64,000 nt of DNA from Cellulomonas soli (lineage in GTDB: Bacteria > Actinomycetota > Actinomycetes > Actinomycetales > Cellulomonadaceae). Shown in pieces: positions 811-51,872 of this stretch. Made by a program: the position numbers and the translations under genes. The DNA lies in the NCBI RefSeq assembly GCF_013409305.1, contig NZ_JACBZJ010000001.1, forward strand, positions 744,001-808,000. The letters run 5' to 3'. Under the pieces are notes generated by a model that ran no database searches, was not told the DNA's origin, and saw nothing but the letters and a program-made list of their open reading frames with translations. Position 1 is the stretch's first letter, and the number at the start of each line of letters is the position of its first letter.

Positions 811-1476
811 TCAGTCCAGCGGGAAGCCCAGGACCTGCGCGGCGGTCGTCGGACGCGGCTCGAGCAGCCAGCGCGCACCCTGCTCGTCGGACGCCGCCAA
901 CGACCGCAGGAGCGCCCTGTCGACGTAGAGCGTGCCGCCGAGATGGTCCGTCTCGTGCTGCACGATGCGCGCCGCCCACCCGTGCACGTGCTCGTCGAGC
1001 ACCGTGCCGCGCTCGTCGAACCCGGTGAGCCGCACCTGCCGGGCGCGGGGCACGACCGCCTGGTAACCGATCACGCTGAGGCAGCCCTCGTAGAACCCGA
1101 CCCGCTCGTCCCCGACCTGGGTGTAGGAGGGGTTGACGAGCACCCGGAACGGCACTGCCTCACGCTCGCGCACCCGCGCAGCCTCGGCGTCGACAGTGCC
1201 CGGGTCCTCGACCACCGCGATCGCGAGCGGCAGCCCGATCTGGGGCGCCGCCAGGCCCACTCCGGGTGCCGCGCGCATCGTGCGGTGCATCACGGCGAGC
1301 AGGCGCGCGAGCTCCTCGTCCGCGAGCTGCCCGTCGAACGGTGCCGCGACGGCCCGGAGCGCCGGGTGCCCGACCTGCACGATCGGCGCGATCCCTCGCT
1401 CGTCGGCCGCATCGAGCAGCCGGAGCGCCAGGTCGCGCAGGGCGACGTCACGCTCCCGCGCACCTGCGGTGGTCAC
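811..1476 (-). CDS. def: peptide deformylase
   Basis: Metal-dependent cytosolic hydrolase that removes the formyl group from the N-terminal methionine of new proteins. All three family motifs are present: [10 protein letters not shown] (about 72-81), EGCLS with the metal-binding Cys132, and HETDH (174-178) with the two metal-binding histidines and the catalytic glutamate. At 221 residues it is longer than the roughly 170-190 of most deformylases. The extra length is an N-terminal helix-rich stretch of about 30 residues and a C-terminal tail. Its start codon overlaps the glmM stop by 4 nt (1473-1476), so the two are probably translationally coupled. The same window carries map, the next enzyme in N-terminal processing. 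Confidence 0.95.
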
Positions 1477-2822
1477 AGCGCCAGCCGAGTCCGCACGACG
1501 TCCGCCAGCGTGTGCGCGACGCGGTCGGCGTCCGCCTGGGTGGCCGCCTCGACCATGACCCGCACGAGCGGCTCGGTGCCCGAGGGGCGCAGCAGGACCC
1601 GGCCCGTCTCCCCGAGACCGTCCTCGGCCTCACGCACCGCGTCGGCCAGCGACTCGTCCGTCCCGGCACGTCCCTTGTCGACGCCGGGCACGTTGACCAG
1701 CGTCTGCGGCAGGCGACGCACGATCCCGGCGAGCGCGTCGAGGGGACGACCGGTCGTGGCGACCCGTGCCGCGAGCTGCAGCGCGGTCAGCACGCCGTCA
1801 CCGGTCGTCGCGTGCTCGGCGAGGATGATGTGCCCGGACTGCTCGCCACCGAGACCGAAGCCACCGGCCCGCATCGCCTCGAGCACGTAGCGGTCACCGA
1901 CACCGGTCTCGACCGTGCGGATGCCCGCGTCCCGCATCGCCAGGCGCAGCCCGAGGTTGCTCATCACGGTGGTGACCAGGGTGTCGTGCGGCAGGACGCC
2001 CGCCTCGTGCAGCGCCACGGCGAGCACGCCCATGATCTGGTCGCCGTCGACGAGCACCCCGTGGCGGTCCACTGCGAGGCAGCGGTCCGCGTCGCCGTCG
2101 AACGCGACGCCGAGTGCGGCCCCCGAGGCGACCACGACGGCCTGCAGCTGCTCCGGGTGGGTCGACCCGCACTGCTCGTTGATGTTCCGCCCGTCGGGCG
2201 AGGCGTTGATGACCACCACGTCCGCGCCGGCCGCACGCAGCGCCGCAGGACCGACCTCGCTTGCCGCGCCGTTCGCGCAGTCGACGGCGATGCGCAGGCC
2301 CGCCAGGGGGGCGTCGATCGTCCCCACGAGGTGCTGGACGTACTGGTCCCCGGCGCTGCCGGTGTCGATGCGGATCCGGCCCACCTCGGCACCGAGCGGC
2401 CGTTCCCAGGTCTCGCCGATGCGCGCCTCGATGGCCGCCTCGAGCTCGTCGTCGAGCTTGTTGCCGCCACGGGCGAGGAACTTGATGCCGTTGTCCGGCA
2501 TGGGGTTGTGCGACGCGGAGAGCACGACGCCCAGGTCGACGCCCATGGCCGCCGTCAGGTATGCCACCGCAGGGGTGGGCAGCACGCCGACGTTGACGAC
2601 GTCGACCCCGGCGGAGGCCAGTCCGGCGGTCACCGCGGCGGACAGGAACTCGCCGGAGGCACGCGAGTCCCGCCCGACGACGGCCCGCGGCCGGTGGCCG
2701 GCGAACTCACCTTGCGAGCCGAGCACGTGCGCCGCCGCCACGGACACGTCGAGCGCGAGCTCGGCCGTCACGTCGCGGTTCGCGAGCCCCCGGACTCCAT
2801 CGGTCCCGAACAGTCGAGCCAT
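1473..2822 (-). CDS. glmM: phosphoglucosamine mutase
   Basis: Interconverts glucosamine-6-phosphate and glucosamine-1-phosphate on the way to UDP-GlcNAc for peptidoglycan. The 449-residue length is normal. The N-terminus [12 protein letters not shown] is the family hallmark. The phosphorylated serine is in SASHNP (Ser104), the metal loop is DGDADR in the middle of the protein, and the C-terminal phosphate-binding loop is [11 protein letters not shown]. The ATG at 2820-2822 is preceded by GGAAGGA; an upstream in-frame extension to 3128 has no family similarity and was rejected. It sits after rpsI, separated by a terminator hairpin at 2882-2921, and is coupled to def downstream. Confidence 0.96.
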
Positions 2823-2881
2823 CCTGTGCTTCCTTCCGCCGTGCTGTCGTGCCCTCGTGCCGTCGACCACCCGCAGGTACG

Positions 2882-2921
2882 CCGATGGCCCCGCAGGTCT
2901 GTCGACCCGCGGGGCCATCGG
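2882..2921 (-). terminator. terminator after rpsI
   Basis: A perfect 13-bp stem (2882-2894 with 2909-2921, core gatggccccgc) closes a 14-nt loop just after the rpsI stop codon. It ends the rplM-rpsI unit ahead of glmM. Confidence 0.75.
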
Positions 2922-2937
2922 GCCGCCACGCCAGGGA

Positions 2938-3426
2938 TCAGCGCTTGGAGTACTGAGGTGCCTTGCGGGCCTTCTTGAGACCGGCCTTCTTGCGCTCGAC
3001 CACGCGTGCGTCACGCGTGAGGAAGCCGGCCTTCTTGAGCACCGCACGGTTGTGCTCGGCGTCGATGGCGTTGAGCGCGCGGGCGATGCCCAGGCGGAGC
3101 GCACCGGCCTGGCCGGAGACGCCACCACCCGTGATGCGGGCGACGACGTCGAAGCGACCCTCGACGTCGACCAGCTTCAGCGGGGAGTTGACCAGCTGCT
3201 GGTGCACCTTGTTCGGGAAGTAGTCCTCGAGGGTGCGGCCGTTGATCTTCCACTGGCCGGTGCCGGGCACCAGGCGCACGCGGGCGACGGCTTCCTTGCG
3301 GCGACCGAGGGCCTGCCCCGGTGCCGTGATGCTCTGACCGCGACCCGTGGGGGCCACCGTCTCGGAGGTGTAGCTCGTGGGCGTGTCGTCGCCCTCGAGG
3401 TCGATGTCGACCGTGGTCTCGGCCAC
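2938..3426 (-). CDS. rpsI: 30S ribosomal protein S9
   Basis: Component of the small-subunit head whose C-terminal tail reaches toward the P-site tRNA. The core reads [15 protein letters not shown] and [19 protein letters not shown], and the C-terminus ends in the conserved QYSKR. The 162-residue form includes an acidic N-terminal extension of about 35 residues typical of actinobacterial S9. I chose the GTG at 3424-3426 because GAGG lies 7 nt upstream. A longer GTG at 3471 that overlaps the rplM stop has poor ribosome-binding spacing. It is the second gene of the rplM-rpsI operon. Confidence 0.93.
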
Positions 3427-3467
3427 TGGTGTCCTCGCGTCCTGTGTCGTCGCGTCTCTCAGCGGGC

Positions 3468-3917
3468 TCACGCCTGCTGGGAGACCTGGGTGATCTCGAA
3501 GGGCTTGGGCTGCTGAGCGGCGTGCGGGTGCGCGGCACCCGCGTAGACCTTCAGCTTGCCGATCTGCTGACGGGCGAGGGACGTCTTGGGGAGCATCCCG
3601 CGGACAGCCTTCTCGATCGCGCGCTCGGGGTGCTTCTCGAGCAGGTCCGAGTACGCCGTCGCGCGCAGACCGCCCGGGTAGCCCGAGTGTCGGTACGCGA
3701 GCTTGGTCTCGCGCTTGTTGCCGGTGAGGGCGACCTTCTCCGCGTTGATGACGATGACGAAGTCACCGCCGTCGACGTGGGGGGCGAAGGTGGCCTTGTG
3801 CTTGCCGCGCAGCAGCGTGGCCACGTGAGTGGCCAGGCGGCCCAGGACGACATCGGTCGCGTCGATGACGTACCAGTTCCGCTCGACGTCGCCGGGCTTC
3901 GGGGTGTACGTACGCAC
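3468..3917 (-). CDS. rplM: 50S ribosomal protein L13
   Basis: Early-assembly protein of the large subunit that binds 23S rRNA. It is 149 residues, close to the usual 142-147. Family segments visible are [15 protein letters not shown] near the N-terminus, [16 protein letters not shown] and the SGYPGGLR loop. The start is the GTG at 3915-3917 (reading [10 protein letters not shown]), the standard actinobacterial start with AAGG about 10 nt upstream; an in-frame ATG at 4019 would add a basic stretch foreign to L13. It is first in the operon with rpsI and has a well-formed promoter at 4087-4116. Confidence 0.95.
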
Positions 3918-4086
3918 GGGTCGTAGCCTTCGTTTCGTGTTGCGTCGTGTTCGTGCGGCCGCAGGGCGGCCGTCCGAGGATGGCTGTCGAGGCATCCCAT
4001 CCGGCGAGTGGGCTCGCACCGGACCGCCATCGGTTCAGCTGGTGAGAAGCCAGCCGCGCTCGACAGGGGACGCACAACGACACAAC

Positions 4087-4116
4087 AGAGTAGCGGCCCC
4101 CGCGGGAGGGGGTCAA
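4087..4116 (-). promoter_or_regulatory. promoter of rplM-rpsI
   Basis: On the minus strand a -35 TTGACC (4111-4116) and a -10 TACTCT (4087-4092) are separated by 18 nt. This implies a leader of about 165 nt before the rplM GTG. The -35 box overlaps the 3' end of the LysR-type gene. Confidence 0.6.
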
Positions 4117-5042
4117 AACGCGGGAGAACCGGCCCCCGTCGGCGACCGCCGACCGGACGCCGGACGCAGCCCTGACCGCGCCGCCGAGACCACCCGCGAC
4201 GTCAGCAGGTCGAGCGTCGGCGTGCGCAGCGACCAGTGCTGCCAGTGCAGCGGCACCTCGAGCCACTGCCCCGGTGCGAACGGCACCAGCCCGCCGGCCG
4301 CGAGCGCCTGCGCGGCAGCACGCTCGGGCACCATGCCCCAGCCGAGCCCGGCCCGGACCAGGTCGACGAACGCCTGCTGCTCGGGCACGTGGTGCGCGGG
4401 AGGTCGCAGCCCGGGGCCGACCAGCTGCTCGACGAACCGGTCCTGCAGCGCGTCCTGCCGGTTGAAGGCCACGACCGGCGCGACCGCGAGCGCCTCGCGG
4501 GTGGGTCCGTCGGGAAGGTGCCTGCCCAGGTAGGACGGCGCGGCCACCGCGACGTAGCGCATGGCGCCCAACGGACGGCTCCGGCAGCCCTGCACCGGCT
4601 CGGCGTCGGCGGTGACGGCCGCCATCGCCGTGCCGTCCCGCAGGAGCCGCGCCGAGTGGTCCTGGTCCTCCCGGTGCAGCTCGACGAGGACGCCTGCGGG
4701 CAGGTCGACGAGCGCAGCGGGGAACCACGTGGACAACGAGTCGGCGTTGACGGCCACGGCGAGGCGGGTCGGGCCGCCGAGCACCTCGAGAGCATCGAGC
4801 GCGTCCTGGGCGAGCAGGTCGACCTGCCCGGCGAGGCGGACCAGCGCCTCGCCCGCCGCGGTCGCCCGGCACGGTCGGCTGCGGCGCACCAGGACGTGCC
4901 CGGCCTGCTGCTCGAGCGCCTTGATGCGCTGACTGACGGCCGAGGGTGTCACGTGCAGCCTGCGCGCGGCCGCATCGAAGCTGCCCTCGCCGACCACGGC
5001 GGCGAGGGCCTCGAGCTGGGCGAGGTCGAACGGGACAGTCAC
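4113..5042 (-). CDS. LysR-type regulator, ArgP/LysG class
   Basis: DNA-binding activator of basic amino acid export. The first 65 residues form the LysR winged helix (QLEALAAVVGEGSFDAAARR, then TPSAVSQRIKALE), followed by an effector-binding domain to residue 309. It is divergent from a LysE/ArgO-type exporter 72 bp away. That arrangement defines the ArgP-argO and LysG-lysE pairs, in which the regulator senses lysine, arginine or histidine and switches on the exporter; the substrate here is inferred. The start is the GTG at 5040-5042. It follows TAGCAT by 7 nt with no Shine-Dalgarno, so the mRNA is probably leaderless. An inverted repeat in the gap could be its operator. Confidence 0.88.
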   Translation of the reverse strand: MTVPFDLAQLEALAAVVGEGSFDAAARRLHVTPSAVSQRIKALEQQAGHVLVRRSRPCRATAAGEALVRLAGQVDLLAQDALDALEVLGGPTRLAVAVNADSLSTWFPAALVDLPAGVLVELHREDQDHSARLLRDGTAMAAVTADAEPVQGCRSRPLGAMRYVAVAAPSYLGRHLPDGPTREALAVAPVVAFNRQDALQDRFVEQLVGPGLRPPAHHVPEQQAFVDLVRAGLGWGMVPERAAAQALAAGGLVPFAPGQWLEVPLHWQHWSLRTPTLDLLTSRVVSAARSGLRPASGRRSPTGAGSPAF

Positions 5043-5047
5043 CTGAG

Positions 5048-5091
5048 CGATGCTAACGGACCTGCAGAAACCTGAACTGGACGCAGCATCG
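5048..5091. promoter_or_regulatory. inverted repeat and leaderless -10 box between regulator and exporter
   Basis: CGATGCT (5048-5054) is mirrored by AGCATCG (5085-5091) across the short divergent region. The left arm overlaps a minus-strand -10 TAGCAT (5050-5055) placed 7 nt before the regulator GTG. This fits autoregulation plus exporter activation by the regulator, but binding is inferred. Confidence 0.45.
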
Positions 5092-5100
5092 TGGCGTCCC

Positions 5101-5106
5101 TAGCGT
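5101..5106 (+). promoter_or_regulatory. -10 box of lysE-type gene (leaderless)
   Basis: TAGCGT ends 8 nt before the GTG at 5115. This spacing places the transcript start at the start codon. Confidence 0.5.
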
Positions 5107-5114
5107 CGGTGGAC

Positions 5115-5729
5115 GTGACCGAACCGCTCGTGCCCGCAGCCGTCGCCGGGCTGCTCACCGGCCTGTCCCTCATCGTCGCGATCGGCGCGCAGAACGCGTT
5201 CGTGCTGCGTCAGGGCATCCGGCGCGAGCACGTCCTGCCCGTCGTCCTCGTGTGCGCGGGCGCCGACGCCCTGCTGGTCACCGCAGGCGTCGCCGGGCTG
5301 GGCAGGCTCGTCTCCGAGCACCCGGACGTGCTGGCGGCTGCCCGGTGGGGCGGTGCGGCGTTCCTGCTCGCCTACGGCGTGCTCGCCGCCCTGCGTGCGG
5401 GACGGCCGGCCACCCTGGAACCCGCCGACGCCGGCCCGGCGAGCCTGCGTGCCGTGCTCGCCGCCGCCCTCGGGTTCACCTTCCTGAACCCGCACGTGTA
5501 CCTCGACACCGTCGTGCTGCTCGGATCGCTCGCGCAGCAGCACGGGCCGGGCGGCGGCACCGTGGCGTTCGGGGCGGGCGCGGTGACCGCGAGCGTGCTC
5601 TGGTTCGGCGCGCTGGGCTTCGGCGCCGCGCGGCTCGCCGGGGTGTTCGCCAGGCCGGCGGCGTGGCGGGTCCTCGACGGCACCGTCGCCGTCCTCATGG
5701 TCGGGCTCGCGGTCTCGCTCGTGCTGTGA
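5115..5729 (+). CDS. LysE/ArgO family amino acid exporter
   Basis: Inner-membrane exporter of the LysE superfamily, about 204 residues with five to six hydrophobic segments. The N-terminal signature GLSLIVAIGAQNAFVLRQG is nearly identical to known LysE/ArgO proteins, and GFTFLNPHVYLDTVVLLG is the second conserved block. Basic amino acids (Lys/Arg) are the expected substrates because the divergent neighbour is an ArgP/LysG-type regulator. I chose the GTG at 5115 because it gives the short N-terminus usual in the family and follows TAGCGT by 8 nt. In-frame GTGs at 5091 and 5109 would add 8 or 2 residues and cannot be excluded. Confidence 0.88.
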   Translation: MTEPLVPAAVAGLLTGLSLIVAIGAQNAFVLRQGIRREHVLPVVLVCAGADALLVTAGVAGLGRLVSEHPDVLAAARWGGAAFLLAYGVLAALRAGRPATLEPADAGPASLRAVLAAALGFTFLNPHVYLDTVVLLGSLAQQHGPGGGTVAFGAGAVTASVLWFGALGFGAARLAGVFARPAAWRVLDGTVAVLMVGLAVSLVL

Positions 5730-46507: not shown

Positions 46508-49201
46508 TCAGGCAGCCCCGTGGGCGCCGAAGGTGCACCAGTTGACGTAGCCGCCCGGCGTCTGCCGGTCGATGCCCGCGCGAGCCGCGTGCAGGGCGTG
46601 GGCCAGCGTGTCCCCCGACCGCAACCGGCGGTGCAGACCCACCATGAGGTCCACCGCCTCGACGTCCGGGATCGCGGCGATGCTCGCCACGACGCCCTGC
46701 GTGCCCTGGGCCAGCATCGCGCTCACCAGGCCCAGCACCTCGCCACCCGCGTACGCGACGTCCGCCCCGCCGTGGCACGACGCCAGCACGAGGCGCCGCG
46801 GGGCCGCGCCCGCCGCGTGCAGCTCCTGCACGGTGACCGGGCCGTCCGCGAGCGCCAGCGAGGAGAACATCGGGTTGTCCGCGCGCAGGGCGCCGTGGCA
46901 CGCCAGGTGCCCCAGGTCGGCCTCGGCGAGCGCCCCGAGGACGACCTCGGCGGTGCTCTCCTGCGGCCCCAGCACCGTCGCGGCGGGGTGCAGGGCCGCG
47001 AGCGCGTCGACCTCCTCCCGCGCACCGTCCAGCTCCGGGCCCGCGACCAGGACCGTGCCGCCATCCCGGACCGTCGCGGCCTCGGCCGTACGCGCCCACA
47101 GCGTCGCCGACGGCGCCATCGCCACCGGCCCCTCGTGCAGGGCCGACCACGGCACACCGTGCAGCAGCCCGGCGGGCACCACCACGAGCTCGTCGTCCGG
47201 CCGCAGCCCGAGCGGCGCGACCAGCATGCGGTGCAGCTCGTCGACACGCAGGTCGGCGCTCGCGCGTGCCGCGTCCGACGAGGCCGACGCCCGCGGGTTG
47301 GCCAACCGACGCAGGGCGAAGAACAGGGCACGGAGCTGGTCGTCGACCTCGGCCTCCTGCCCGAGCTCGACGACCCGGCTGCGCGAGCGCCGCACGACCA
47401 CCGCCACGAGGCGTCCCCCGTGCCGTCCGTACTCGACGAGCACGCGGTCGCCCAGCGCGTCGCGCAGCGGGCCCAGGCCGAAGACCTGCGCACGCTCGAC
47501 GCCGCGCTCGTCCTGGACGACATCCCTCGTCCAGGACGACGCCCTCTCCCGGACCTGCTCCTCGACGTCCGCCACGACCTCCGCCGTCGCGCCGGCACGG
47601 GTGGTCGTGTCGAACCCGCTCGCGAGCCGCTGGCGTCGATCCCGGGCCCGCGGGCTCGTGGTCGGCTCGGCAGGGACCCGGGTGAGCAGGGCTGCGGCGC
47701 GCGTGCGCTCCATCCACTCCAGCACCCGGGCGGGCGAGCTCTGCCGCAGCACGACGCCCAGACCGAGCTCGCCGAGCTCGGCACCGTGCCCGGAGGCCAG
47801 GGCGCGCAGCTCCATCGTCGGCAGGCTCGCCCGGTGGCCCGCCAGATCGCGCAGCCCTGCCCGGCAGGCCGCGAGCACGTCGGTGTGGCGGTCGGCCACC
47901 CGGGCGGCCAGGGCGACGGCCAGTCGCCCGCGCACCCGCACGAGCACGGCCCCGCCCGAGGCCAGCCGACCCGCCCGGCCGAGCTCGGTGAGCGCGACCT
48001 CGCGACGGTCCTCCGCCATGGCGAGCCGACCGGCCACCAGGTGGGCCTGCACGGCGCCCGGCAGGTTCCCGCCGCGCTCGAGCCGGGCCGCCGCGCGACG
48101 GACCGCCGCGAGCTCCGTCGCCGTGGCCTCCCCCGCCAGCCGCCGGGCCTCGACGCCCACGAGCAGAGCCCGGTCGCGCCACGCCCCCCGACGTTGCCGG
48201 TCGAGCGCGGCGACGGCCGTCTCGGCCGTCACTCGCGCGGCCTCCAGGTCACCCTCGAGCAGCGAGATCTGCGCGAGGCGCAGCCGTGCCTCGGCCCCCA
48301 TGAACGGCACGTGCGCGGCCTCGAACTCCTCGACGGCACGCCGCGCCGCCGTGGACGCCTCCGGGAGCAGGCGCAGGTCGGCCATCGTGTCGGCGTACTC
48401 CGCGTAGTACTCCCCCAGCGGCAGGCCGGCGTCGGCGTACACGCGGGCCGCCTCGTCGAAGTCGCGCAGCCCGAGCGCGAGCCGACCGGACTGCACCCGG
48501 ATCCACGCGCGGCTCTGCAGCACCGGGGCCAGCGCCGCCGGCCCCAGCCGTGCCGCGACCTCCACGGCCTGCTCGACCCACTCCAGGGCCTCGTCGTACG
48601 CGCCGCGGTGCGCGATGACGAACCCGAGGTTGTTCAACAGCTTGTACCGGTCGGTGTCGGTGAGCCACGGGTCGCGCGCGAGCTCGCGCAGCCGCGGCTC
48701 GGCCCTCTCCATACGGCCGGCATTGGCGTCCGACGTCGCCTGCTGCATGCGGATGCGGGCCGCCGCGAGGCTGCGCTCCTCGCCCTCGGGGGCGTCCACG
48801 AGCGCCTCGAGGGCCGCGTCGAGGTCCCGGCGGGCGGCGGCCGCACGACCCATCTCCTGCCGGACGGCATGCCGGGTCATGCGCACGTGCACCACGAGGA
48901 GCCCGTCGCCCGAGCGCCGACCCAGGCGCAGCGCCTCCGCCAGCAGCCGATCGGCCGTGCCGTGGTCCCAGCGGGACCGGTGCGCCCAGGCGAGCGCACG
49001 CAGCGACCAAGCCAGCGCGCGCAGGTCCCCCGCAGCCCGGCTGGCCACGACGGCCTCCTGGGCGAGCTGCTCCCCCCGACGCGGATCGGCTCCGACCGTG
49101 TCGAAAAGTAGGCGCGCGTGTATCAGGAGCGACTCTGGGCGCTCTGAAGAGGTGGACCGGCCCCCCGCCAGGGGTCGGTCGGGTGGGGACCCGTCCGACA
49201 C
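46508..49201 (-). CDS. TPR-CHAT caspase-like protease
   Basis: A soluble 897-residue protein. About residues 20-560 are helical TPR-type repeats (LAWSLRALAWAHRSRWDHG; YDEALEWVEQAVEVAARLG). Residues of about 600-897 form a CHAT domain, a caspase-like cysteine protease fold, with catalytic His769 in LGHLACHGALR and Cys809 in LVLASCHGG. CHAT proteases act in bacterial signalling, conflict and cell-death systems, often switched on by a ligand bound to the TPRs. It is divergent, 34 bp away, from a cytoplasmic subtilisin-like protease, a sigma factor and a beta-sandwich protein. The GTG start follows TAAGAT by 7 nt (leaderless). The substrate is unknown; one of the neighbours is a good candidate. 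Confidence 0.88.
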   Translation of the reverse strand: MSDGSPPDRPLAGGRSTSSERPESLLIHARLLFDTVGADPRRGEQLAQEAVVASRAAGDLRALAWSLRALAWAHRSRWDHGTADRLLAEALRLGRRSGDGLLVVHVRMTRHAVRQEMGRAAAARRDLDAALEALVDAPEGEERSLAAARIRMQQATSDANAGRMERAEPRLRELARDPWLTDTDRYKLLNNLGFVIAHRGAYDEALEWVEQAVEVAARLGPAALAPVLQSRAWIRVQSGRLALGLRDFDEAARVYADAGLPLGEYYAEYADTMADLRLLPEASTAARRAVEEFEAAHVPFMGAEARLRLAQISLLEGDLEAARVTAETAVAALDRQRRGAWRDRALLVGVEARRLAGEATATELAAVRRAAARLERGGNLPGAVQAHLVAGRLAMAEDRREVALTELGRAGRLASGGAVLVRVRGRLAVALAARVADRHTDVLAACRAGLRDLAGHRASLPTMELRALASGHGAELGELGLGVVLRQSSPARVLEWMERTRAAALLTRVPAEPTTSPRARDRRQRLASGFDTTTRAGATAEVVADVEEQVRERASSWTRDVVQDERGVERAQVFGLGPLRDALGDRVLVEYGRHGGRLVAVVVRRSRSRVVELGQEAEVDDQLRALFFALRRLANPRASASSDAARASADLRVDELHRMLVAPLGLRPDDELVVVPAGLLHGVPWSALHEGPVAMAPSATLWARTAEAATVRDGGTVLVAGPELDGAREEVDALAALHPAATVLGPQESTAEVVLGALAEADLGHLACHGALRADNPMFSSLALADGPVTVQELHAAGAAPRRLVLASCHGGADVAYAGGEVLGLVSAMLAQGTQGVVASIAAIPDVEAVDLMVGLHRRLRSGDTLAHALHAARAGIDRQTPGGYVNWCTFGAHGAA

Positions 49202-49208
49202 ACAGCGG

Positions 49209-49214
49209 ATCTTA
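49209..49214 (-). promoter_or_regulatory. -10 box of CHAT gene (leaderless)
   Basis: TAAGAT on the minus strand lies 7 nt before the GTG at 49201, inside the 34-bp divergent gap shared with the S8 protease gene. Confidence 0.5.
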
Positions 49215-49235
49215 GGCCGACGAACAGGAGCAGAC

Positions 49236-50648
49236 GTGACGACAACCGGCGACGTCGGGCGCGAGGGAGCACCCTTCGGGGACGACTACCGCGACCTGGC
49301 CGAGGGGCGCCCGAGCTCGCGCACCTATCAACGCGTGCAGCAGCAGGTGACCGACCTGCGGGTCAGCAGGTCGAACCCGGGCGTGCAGCGCGAGCTGAGC
49401 AGGGCCATCTCCAGCCGGTACCAGGAGCGGCGCGACCGCCAGCTCGGCTGGATCGCCGGGACCGGCGGCGTCGACGTGCTGCTCGTCGACGGCGAGGTGC
49501 TCATCACCGACCGCACGTGGGCGCACCGCGGCGCCCGCGAGTACCTGCTGCGACGCGGGCTGCGGGAGGCCGAGCTGGGGTGCCCCGAGCTCGAGTCGCG
49601 CCTGACCAGGCTGGTCACCGACGACCCCGACAACCCCGTCGAGCTCGAGCGGCTCGACGACACCGTGGCCGAGCTGCGCGCCCGTGGGTTCGCGGCCTCC
49701 CTCACGCACGTCACCCCGATGTCCCCCATCATCAAGAACCTCGGCGGGCCGGCCCTCGGCGAACCGCTCGGCGCCTTCGCCGACTACCCCGCGTTCGGGC
49801 GGGACGGCAGCGGCCAGGCCGCCAAGGTCGCCGTCATCGACACCGGGATCGACGGCAAGCTCCGCGGCGACGGCTGGCTGAACGGCGTCGTGCGCTACCG
49901 GGACGACCCGGCCACGCACGCCAACGAGTCGAACATCGACCTGCTCGACAACGACCCGCCGGACGGGTTCCTCGACTTCGCCGCCGGGCACGGCACGTTC
50001 GCGGCAGGGATCGTCGCGCAGGTCGCCCCAGGCGCCGACATCTCCGTCTTCCGCGCGTTGCGCGGCGGCGGTGCGGGCAGTGAGCTCGAGGTCGCATGCG
50101 CACTCGTGCGAGCCGTCCGGGAGGGCGCGCAGATCGTCAACCTGTCGCTCGGGTCGCACACCCGGTACGACCAGCCCTCGCTGGCGATCGCGGCCGCGCT
50201 CGAGGTGGTCGGCGAGATCGAGGCCGAGCGAGGCGAGGAGGTGCTCGTCGTGTGCGCCGCCGGCAACTACGGCGACACGACACCCACGTGGCCCGCGGCC
50301 TTCCGCCGCGTCGTCTCCGTCGGTGCGGTCTCCGCGAACCTCAAGCCGACCACGTGGTCGAGCCGCGGGTTCTGGGTCGACTGCTCGACCGTCGGCGAGG
50401 GCGTCCTGTCCACGTTCGTCGAGGGCAGCGAGTCGTACGAGTACACGTCCGAGCCCGACACGTTCGGGGAGGACGCCTTCGCCCGGTGGAGCGGCACCTC
50501 GTTCGCAGCCCCGCAGATCGCCGGCGGTGTCGCACGACTCGTGCAGGAGCACGGCCTGTCGCCGCGGGAGGCCTACACGCGGCTGCTCGCCGCGGGTGTG
50601 CCCGTTCCCGACTTCGGGCAGGCCATGAGCATCCTCCCTGGGCTGTGA
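49236..50648 (+). CDS. S8 (subtilisin-like) serine protease, probably cytoplasmic
   Basis: A 470-residue protein with an intact subtilase triad: Asp202 in AVIDTGID, His252 in GHGTFAAG and Ser422 in GTSFAAP. Asn344 in AAGNYG is the oxyanion-hole residue. There is no signal peptide or membrane segment, unlike most secreted subtilisins. The first 190 residues are a polar domain of unknown fold that may be an inhibitory prodomain or a recognition domain. The GTG at 49236-49238 has AGGAG 5 nt upstream. It is followed within 80 nt by the sigma-factor gene and is divergent from the CHAT protease. Confidence 0.9.
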   Translation: MTTTGDVGREGAPFGDDYRDLAEGRPSSRTYQRVQQQVTDLRVSRSNPGVQRELSRAISSRYQERRDRQLGWIAGTGGVDVLLVDGEVLITDRTWAHRGAREYLLRRGLREAELGCPELESRLTRLVTDDPDNPVELERLDDTVAELRARGFAASLTHVTPMSPIIKNLGGPALGEPLGAFADYPAFGRDGSGQAAKVAVIDTGIDGKLRGDGWLNGVVRYRDDPATHANESNIDLLDNDPPDGFLDFAAGHGTFAAGIVAQVAPGADISVFRALRGGGAGSELEVACALVRAVREGAQIVNLSLGSHTRYDQPSLAIAAALEVVGEIEAERGEEVLVVCAAGNYGDTTPTWPAAFRRVVSVGAVSANLKPTTWSSRGFWVDCSTVGEGVLSTFVEGSESYEYTSEPDTFGEDAFARWSGTSFAAPQIAGGVARLVQEHGLSPREAYTRLLAAGVPVPDFGQAMSILPGL

Positions 50649-50725
50649 TCATGGCTGACACCGTGCTCGTGGGGCGGGATGATGGCCGCCACGGGCACGT
50701 CACGACGAGCGAGAGGGGGTGGGTC

Positions 50726-51364
50726 GTGGACGTCACCGATGTCGACGACCCCTACCGGGGCTGGGGCACCACCGCCCTGGTCGCGGGGGCGCTCACAGGG
50801 GACGAAGGCGCGTGGAACGAGATCGTCCGCCGGCACGTGCCGGCGGTGCTCGCGCAGATCCGCCAGTTCCGGCTCGCGCCGGAGCACGCGGAGGACGTCG
50901 CGCAGACGGTCTGGCTGAACCTGCTGGAGAACCTGGACCGGCTCCGGGACCCGGCGGCACTGCCCGGCTGGATCTCGACGACCGCCCGCCACGAGTGCAT
51001 CCGGATGACCAACCGCAACAAGCGGTCGGTCCCGGTGGACCCGCAGACGGGCAGCCTGGACGTCGGCGTGCACCAGGACCTCGACGAGGGCATGGACCAG
51101 GTCGAGCGCTACCGCGCGCTGCGCGAGGGGCTCGCCCAGCTGCCCGACCACCAACGCGAGCTGCTGCTCATGCTCGCCACCGATCCACCGCTCAGCTACC
51201 AGGAGATCTCCGCACGACTGGGGATCCCCATCGGCTCGATCGGACCGACCCGGGGTCGCGGGCTCGCCCGCCTTCGACAGACCCCAGCCATCAAGAACTA
51301 CCTCGCGGCGAACGCCCACGCCGCGTTCGGGGAAGGGGGCGACAGTGTCCTGGCACTCGACTGA
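50726..51364 (+). CDS. ECF-type RNA polymerase sigma factor
   Basis: A 212-residue sigma-70-family factor with only regions 2 and 4. Region 2 covers EGAWNEIVRRHVPAVLAQIR, the core-binding APEHAEDVAQTVWLNLLEN, and PGWISTTARHECIRMTNRNK. Region 4 has LPDHQRELLLMLATDPPLS, YQEISARLGIPIGSIGPTRG, the helix-turn-helix. I chose the GTG at 50726 because GAGGGGG lies 6-7 nt upstream; an in-frame ATG at 50651 with no ribosome-binding site would add 25 residues. It lies after the S8 protease and overlaps the next gene by 20 nt. No classical anti-sigma (zinc-binding or membrane) is adjacent. Confidence 0.88.
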   Translation: MDVTDVDDPYRGWGTTALVAGALTGDEGAWNEIVRRHVPAVLAQIRQFRLAPEHAEDVAQTVWLNLLENLDRLRDPAALPGWISTTARHECIRMTNRNKRSVPVDPQTGSLDVGVHQDLDEGMDQVERYRALREGLAQLPDHQRELLLMLATDPPLSYQEISARLGIPIGSIGPTRGRGLARLRQTPAIKNYLAANAHAAFGEGGDSVLALD

Positions 51365-51872
51365 CGGAGCCGACGGCACCGATCGGAGCACCGGCGTCCG
51401 CTGGGCGGACGACGACCACCTCGGCGAGGACCTCGCTGCGGCGCTGGCGGACGGCCCGCTGTACGAGCGGGTGGTCGGCAGCGCGCAGACGGCCTTCCGG
51501 GCGCACCGCGGCATGCTCGCCGCACGGGAGGACCTCGACCTGGACCTCCTGCTGCTCTCGCTCGTGTACGACTCGAGCGAGAGTCCGCAGGCTTCCGGCG
51601 TCCGGGACCGCACGGGCGGCAGCTCGCGGGTCCTGGCCTTCCAGGGCAACGACCTGGGCGTCGAGGTGGAGGTCGAGGCGACCTCCATCGAGGGGCAGCT
51701 GATCCCGCCGCGACCCGGCCGGATCAGCCTGCAGTCCCCCGACGCCGTGGTCACGACCCTGGAGACCGACGCCGTCGGCTACTTCCGGATCGACGTGCGT
51801 CCCCAGGGGCCGCTGCGGCTCGTGTGCGACAGCATCGACGGCACGTGCGTGACCCAGTGGCTGCCGTGGTGA
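51345..51872 (+). CDS. carboxypeptidase-regulatory-like beta-sandwich protein, sigma-factor partner
   Basis: A 175-residue soluble protein. The first half is helical and acidic (WADDDHLGEDLAAALADG, LYERVVGSAQTAFRAHRGML) followed by a short Leu-rich helix (LDLDLLLLSLVYD). The second half reads as a carboxypeptidase-regulatory-like or Ig-like sandwich: VEVEATSIEGQLIPP, RISLQSPDA, ETDAVGYFRIDVRPQGPLRL. The GTG at 51345 lies inside the sigma gene with AAGGGGG just upstream, so the two are coupled. Position suggests an anti-sigma or sensor role, perhaps the element cut by the S8 or CHAT protease. That is inference. A terminator follows. Confidence 0.75.
   Translation: MSWHSTDGADGTDRSTGVRWADDDHLGEDLAAALADGPLYERVVGSAQTAFRAHRGMLAAREDLDLDLLLLSLVYDSSESPQASGVRDRTGGSSRVLAFQGNDLGVEVEVEATSIEGQLIPPRPGRISLQSPDAVVTTLETDAVGYFRIDVRPQGPLRLVCDSIDGTCVTQWLPW

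Follow-up and report, generated by a model that had tools for sequence, protein, structure and literature searches.

What would two proteases and a sigma factor do together beside the ribosomal protein genes of an actinobacterium? The question is raised by a 64,000-nucleotide stretch of the Cellulomonas soli genome (assembly GCF_013409305.1, contig NZ_JACBZJ010000001.1, positions 744,001 to 808,000; hereafter the window), in which we confirmed four neighboring genes encoding a TPR-CHAT protease, an S8-family protease, an extracytoplasmic function (ECF) type sigma factor, SIG, and a 175-residue protein, P175. Judged by their conservation as neighbors, the four genes form one module. As to how it works, we tentatively propose, as a reading that is quite possible if somewhat short of probable, that CHAT, once activated by a signal, cuts P175, pro-S8 or both and so releases a self-regulating sigma factor, which leads to more S8. 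The features are, in window coordinates:

46508..49201, minus strand: CHAT gene, 897 residues, TPR-CHAT caspase-like cysteine protease with H769 and C809
49236..50648, plus strand: S8 gene, 470 residues, GTG start, predicted pro-subtilisin
50651..51364, plus strand: SIG gene, up to 237 residues, ECF-type sigma factor, start at ATG 50651 or GTG 50726
51345..51872, plus strand: P175 gene, 175 residues, candidate sigma partner (anti-sigma)
49120..49145, plus strand: predicted promoter GTATCA-N16-CTCT, located within the 5' portion of CHAT and serving the S8-SIG-P175 operon
49209..49214, minus strand: probable housekeeping -10 element TAAGAT for CHAT, 7 nt before the CHAT GTG

Four neighboring genes in Cellulomonas and across the class

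The CHAT and S8 genes diverge across a 34-bp gap (49202-49235), and the SIG and P175 genes overlap by 20 bp; these placements, like the catalytic residues, are as the initial annotation of the window gave them. By Pfam matches, ribosomal protein L10 (rplJ), L7/L12 and RNA polymerase beta lie on one flank and L1 (rplA) on the other. At E<=0.001 the whole genome, 4.26 Mb in a single contig, contains one CHAT match and ten for S8, too few for the grouping to be a matter of chance.

Within the genus, a close S8 homolog (E below 1e-120) occurs in 14 of 36 genomes, C. soli included, and in all 13 others CHAT, S8, SIG and P175 are present in unchanged order. rplA adjoins the module in 10 of these 13 loci, the remaining three being covered with short flanks. 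The insertion between rplJ and rplA, already remarked on in the initial annotation, holds for this genome and, as far as seen, appears to be a Cellulomonas trait: none of the 80 class-wide stretches described below matches rplA or rplJ. The unchanging position within Cellulomonas suggests vertical inheritance. We considered and rejected a mobile element, given the constant site in those Cellulomonas loci whose flanks reach it, no S8 match to plasmids at 1e-20, and only distant viral subtilases (27 subtilase relatives from a single viral-contig scan, at 24-34% identity, align only from S8 residue 157 on). The five named relatives in one scan were four Cellulomonas and a Mycobacteriales metagenome-assembled genome. 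Cellulomonas sp. 73-92 (L043) has a second, distant copy of CHAT, P175 and SIG on the minus strand at 1310-5235, between rplJ and the first copy, with its own GTATCA-N16-CTC at 5214 and no second S8 found.

Across Actinomycetes, a SIG profile (E<=1e-22) has relatives in at least 135 of 394 genomes. Among the matches listed, 80 neighborhoods in 70 genomes were picked by hand, mostly top matches with some lower ones, in stretches reaching up to 8 kb on either side of SIG. The four-gene set is complete at 52 of the 80; the other loci have SIG and P175 only (13), SIG only (13), or three of the genes on short contigs (2). Our first profiles, built mostly from Cellulomonas, placed S8 and CHAT beside SIG at 52 of the 80 loci and P175 at 40 of these, and with a new P175 profile made from those initial matches P175 was detected at all 52. 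Counted by genome, with unlinked copies included, all four genes are present in 59 of 70. Short contigs or low completeness explain seven of the 11 genomes without the full set, and explain the remaining four less easily (G140, G146, G252 and G364). A search for unlinked CHAT covered 21 genomes, representing 23 of the 27 loci that lack CHAT at SIG (the short-contig loci L071, L084, L087 and L109 were left out), and 17 of the 21 have a CHAT gene. Six carry a linked module at another place; among the remaining 15, CHAT lies apart from SIG in eleven, with S8 adjoining it in ten of these, and in G303, G146, G140 and G252 no CHAT was found genome-wide. The four-gene loci show at least seven gene orders (that of L072, an artefact of open reading frame midpoints, is excluded), and this variation argues for function rather than frozen synteny. 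The four genes had been proposed to be a single system, and their regular association in the genus and the class bears this out.

A predicted promoter motif before S8 and SIG

An alignment of the CHAT-S8 boundary contains an unbroken GTATCA in 15 of 15 sequences, and in 18 of 18 Cellulomonas loci GTATCA is followed by CTC[TC] after 16-17 bases (two genomes seem to have been sampled twice, one as L011 and L041 and the other as L015 and L043, so the 18 loci are about 16 genomes). The window's copy at 49120-49145 falls on the sole ATA codon among CHAT's 897. Two loci, L016 and L017, have a second copy that is oriented with S8 and SIG and lies between them, and for this reason we rejected the motif as a promoter into CHAT. 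We infer that GTATCA and CTC are the -35 and -10 elements of a promoter read by SIG.

For the class, we searched for GTATCA-N15-17-CTC in the 700 bases before SIG, S8 or P175. The exact motif occurs in 46 of 67 loci with P175, or 52 when GTATCT is allowed, and in 2 of the 13 SIG loci that lack P175; one of the two is L063, whose genome has P175 and S8 at another place (L181). When the hexamer's letters are put in their 179 alternative orders, the mean is 0.3 loci, even with TATCAG (32 loci), a one-base shift of the same site, included, and the antisense count is 3 of 67. Within 500 bases, the motif is found in 36 of 80 loci against a permuted mean of 0.18. The shared motif suggests that the sigma factor switches on S8 and itself, and its occurrence before the S8/SIG operon is new within the open-licence literature searched.

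Some genomes separate the S8-CHAT pair from SIG and so allow the motif to be viewed in trans. The exact motif precedes S8 in three (L044, L178 and L181) of 13 such pairs (the others being L180, L184-L190, L196 and L200); L184 has the GTATCT variant at S8, and the stretch of L196 ends inside S8. On the sigma side, the motif lies 163 bases before the sigma domain in L156, the partner of L044, and 300 bases before it in L063, the partner of L181; in L066, the SIG side of L178, it lies 718 bases away and was counted as doubtful. Jiangella-like genomes, so labeled from their protein matches, carry GTATCA or GTATCT at their SIG units and neither at their S8 units. The evidence in trans is positive but partial.

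The CHAT gene has a different kind of upstream signal. In 11 of 18 Cellulomonas loci an in-frame start is preceded at 6-8 nt by TANNNT, with none found in seven, and TAAGAT before the CHAT GTG suggests that CHAT is transcribed as a leaderless, constitutive housekeeping message. A start of this type in most of the Cellulomonas loci fits a sensor that is made beforehand.

Motif sites also occur before other genes. In the C. soli genome there are two exact sites against one for a reversed control, and the second (C1:1283540-1283565, L126), 105 bases before a ThrE-type threonine/serine exporter gene, is not above chance, so we rejected a wider regulon in this genome. The 14 genus genomes with a close module together have 57 sites against 12 for the control. 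At L088, L091, L094 and L108 (by eye also L085, L086, L092 and L110) the motif stands just upstream of a large ATPase gene near the module; four of these eight genes were tested and all match GerE and AAA_16, AAA_16 falling below the Pfam cut-off in one, and a LuxR-type AAA ATPase is a possible fifth component. Six Cellulomonas genomes (L158-L162 and L164), three of them without a close module, have the motif before orthologous small membrane protein genes, of which that in L158 is DoxX by Pfam. A small protein divergent from SIG has its own motif copy at L047 (7438-7872) and L048 (8713-9093), and the L047 protein has no Pfam match.

Apparently intact proteases and a sigma factor with a candidate partner

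Both proteases appear catalytically intact. CHAT matches its Pfam family at E=1.1e-29, with TPR matches below the Pfam cut-offs, and its H769/C809 pair is invariant in all 53 readable homologs (58 were examined, five of which end before the catalytic site). S8 matches Peptidase_S8 at E=6.2e-31 with residues D202, H252, N344 and S422, and its triad is invariant in 58 of 58 homologs. With gene starts accepted as annotated at source, the S8 N-terminus is not hydrophobic: over the first 60 residues, every 19-residue segment has negative hydropathy in all 25 aligned sequences. On these 25 sequences we rejected a secreted protease, and the earlier view that S8 has no signal peptide and is cytoplasmic is upheld.

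S8 divides into an N-terminal extension (residues ~1-66), an I9-like pro-domain (~70-161) and the S8 domain (match 193-440), and neither the extension nor the pro-domain has a Pfam match, I9 included. The predicted model is weak as a whole (mean predicted local distance difference test, pLDDT, of 57); residues 81-160 reach a pLDDT of about 75-93 in the strand-helix order of a subtilisin pro-domain. The best VIA matches of the model are pro-forms, namely pro-subtilisin E, EpiP and PatA, and they align from model residue 85 to chain residue 7. S8 is thus predicted to be a zymogen with an I9-like pro-domain, which is also new within the literature searched. It shares the S8 fold and an N-terminal pro-domain with these pro-subtilisins, intracellular forms included, no signal peptide being seen here, and differs from them in its Pfam-unmatched N-terminal parts and its constant CHAT and sigma partners. 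A metagenomic open reading frame joining S8 and sigma (P0102, 679 residues) was not taken as evidence, as its S8 end is swapped for unrelated letters in what looks by eye like a frameshift.

SIG has sigma regions 2 and 4 above cut-off (PF04542, E=1.1e-11; PF08281; PF04545; TIGR02937, E=3e-17). A 237-residue protein, P0140, was rejected as a fusion by eye, its additional N-terminus resembling a mistaken start.

Wherever both genes occur (71 of 71 loci), P175 directly follows SIG and shares its strand. With the P175 start taken as the start codon closest to the SIG stop, the genes overlap in 51 of these 71 pairs, by exactly 4 bases in 34 of the 51. P175 alone matches no family at E<=1 in Pfam, NCBIfam or PADLOC. 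As a family, it matches CarboxypepD_reg (PF13620) at E<=0.5 in 14 of 20 aligned members, at best 2e-5, the one member with a full match table lying below the Pfam cut-off. AlphaFold predicts a long helix (23-63) and an Ig-like beta-sandwich (about 68-169), with a mean pLDDT of 77.8 and a predicted template modeling score of 0.55. We rejected P175 as a peptidase, since no catalytic family matches it or its family, and also as a known anti-sigma factor by fold: a search of the PDB gave generic Ig-like sandwiches (best E 0.024) and no known anti-sigma, and profile searches gave a biofilm surface protein (E 0.0025) and, with a broad profile, nothing below 0.14.

P175 is nevertheless the best candidate for the missing sigma partner, an anti-sigma role being suggested by gene position. 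A sigma factor that drives its own gene needs a brake, and a protein translated right behind SIG, from a gene that often overlaps it, is an obvious candidate. The sandwich protein had been put forward as such a partner in the initial annotation, and its unbroken pairing with SIG supports that proposal.

From gene neighborhood to a proposed circuit

The gene association itself is already known. In the accessible part of PMC8999054, ECF group 54 (ECF54) is printed with 'carboxypeptidase, subtilase and CHAT' neighbors in Actinobacteria, and the module here shares with it an ECF sigma factor without a classical anti-sigma, accompanied by CHAT, subtilase and carboxypeptidase-type neighbors. Its printed 'carboxypeptidase' is probably P175, a predicted Ig-like sandwich, an identification that is again new within the literature searched. 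The module departs from the ECF54 description in its proposed non-enzymatic P175, its S8 zymogen and its promoter motif, and the likeness lies in the sigma domains and the neighboring genes. A worked-out ECF54 mechanism was not found in the open-licence literature, which gave only the neighborhood and a proposal; the accessible part of PMC8103513 has nothing on ECF54 or CHAT.

A closer mechanistic precedent comes from type III-E Craspase/CASP, in which Csx29, a TPR-CHAT protein, cuts Csx30, an inhibitor of an ECF sigma factor (PMC10028731, in the part accessible). Common to both are a TPR-CHAT protein with a His-Cys dyad, an ECF sigma factor, a further small-locus protein beside it and a possible relay from cleavage to transcription. 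P175, which has no NCBIfam match, sits beside SIG where a Csx30-like inhibitor would. The present module differs in its additional S8 protease and in a P175 of merely 175 residues. We do not file it under Craspase, because CHAT is not Csx29 (model NF041237: E=0.28, with 9.9 bits where the cut-off is 300) and no RAMP (Cas7-11-type) protein matches PF03787 in the whole genome (a positive control matches 4 of 14 genomes); by analogy, it may work like Craspase without being a member. Proteolysis of the anti-sigma factor RseA by DegS shares the logic of a protease-gated ECF sigma factor (accessible parts of PMC8103513 and PMC10028731), whereas here all parts look soluble and there is no membrane step.

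In the circuit we tentatively favor, TPR-CHAT would be made beforehand from its putative leaderless housekeeping promoter and would sense a signal through its TPR part, while SIG would be kept silent by co-translated P175. Activated CHAT would cut P175 and/or the S8 pro-domain, and SIG, once free, would read GTATCA-N16-CTC before its own operon to yield more S8, SIG and P175. The switch would thereby amplify itself, its chief output being a subtilisin zymogen in the cytosol that CHAT, or the zymogen itself, would then activate. The conserved module, the intact proteases, the constant SIG-P175 pairing, the motif (also before some S8 genes unlinked from SIG), the pro-subtilisin fold and the Csx29-Csx30 precedent count in its favor. 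The module, catalytic residues, predicted pro-domain and motif are read from sequence; the reading of the motif by SIG, the anti-sigma role of P175, CHAT as trigger, each cleavage step and the cleavage order are what we infer from them. A more specific form, in which the module is a CRISPR-free chromosomal counterpart of the Craspase relay, with the TPR-caspase cutting stoichiometric P175, the freed sigma factor amplifying the subtilisin zymogen and the same caspase activating that zymogen, is possible but on balance doubtful.

Several observations weigh against this circuit. The exact motif is absent from 21 of the 67 loci with P175, 12 of the 52 four-gene loci have neither it nor the GTATCT form, and 10 of the 13 unlinked pairs lack the exact form before S8. 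The 22 genus genomes without a close module have 52 motif sites against 14 for the control, an excess implying that other sigma factors probably read the motif as well, and because 51 of 58 relatives match it, the short pattern alone is not diagnostic. P175 resembles no known anti-sigma domain in fold and profile searches.

The hypothesis printed for ECF54 runs the other way: S8, and perhaps CHAT, would degrade SIG at rest until a signal stops proteolysis, with P175 as an adaptor or substrate marker and not an anti-sigma. PMC8999054, in the part accessible, lists ECF54 among sigma factors kept inactive by peptidases and proposes proteolytic control, and S8 shares an operon and a motif with SIG, as negative feedback would need. 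However, the supposed 'carboxypeptidase' is probably the non-enzymatic P175, and a zymogen-like S8 behind an inducible-looking promoter is more what one would expect of a product of the 'on' state than of a protease that degrades SIG at rest. We regard this hypothesis as unlikely.

CHAT and S8 proteins occur in known defense systems, and a defense or cell-death module, in which CHAT would detect infection, SIG would boost S8 and the mature protease would digest the cell's contents in an abortive response, would suit both the positive feedback onto a cytosolic protease and the motif-bearing LuxR-type AAA ATPase genes near some modules. In PADLOC at E<=1, though, nothing matches CHAT, SIG or P175, and S8 matches a generic subtilase model (3.7e-14) and partial IetS models (best 1.1e-5) and nothing beyond, the weak IetS match being a point for defense. 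The viral relatives, none above 34% identity or spanning the S8 N-terminal part, the missing plasmid match and the fixed Cellulomonas site further speak against such a role, which we consider quite unlikely. The initial annotation's link from protease to sigma factor survives as a working idea, together with the single system, the cytoplasmic S8 and the candidate partner; its cutting of one protease by the other, its release of the sigma factor through a cut P175, its lethal outcome and its conflict setting are conjectural. An ordinary response to proteotoxic or cytoplasmic stress, with S8 clearing damaged proteins and CHAT tuning S8, would agree with a widespread chromosomal module and a cytoplasmic subtilisin with an intact triad, but is improbable given that close S8 occurs in only 14 of 36 genus genomes, which is unusual for a core stress response.

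With P175 as the likely partner of SIG, S8 as a predicted zymogen and a defined candidate promoter, a known gene neighborhood becomes a testable circuit. If the more specific, Craspase-like form of the circuit is true, it would constitute a bacterial caspase-to-zymogen cascade with transcriptional positive feedback, widespread in Actinomycetes. Should the relay prove real, transcriptional control of the caspase type would be a common actinobacterial device rather than a CRISPR specialty.

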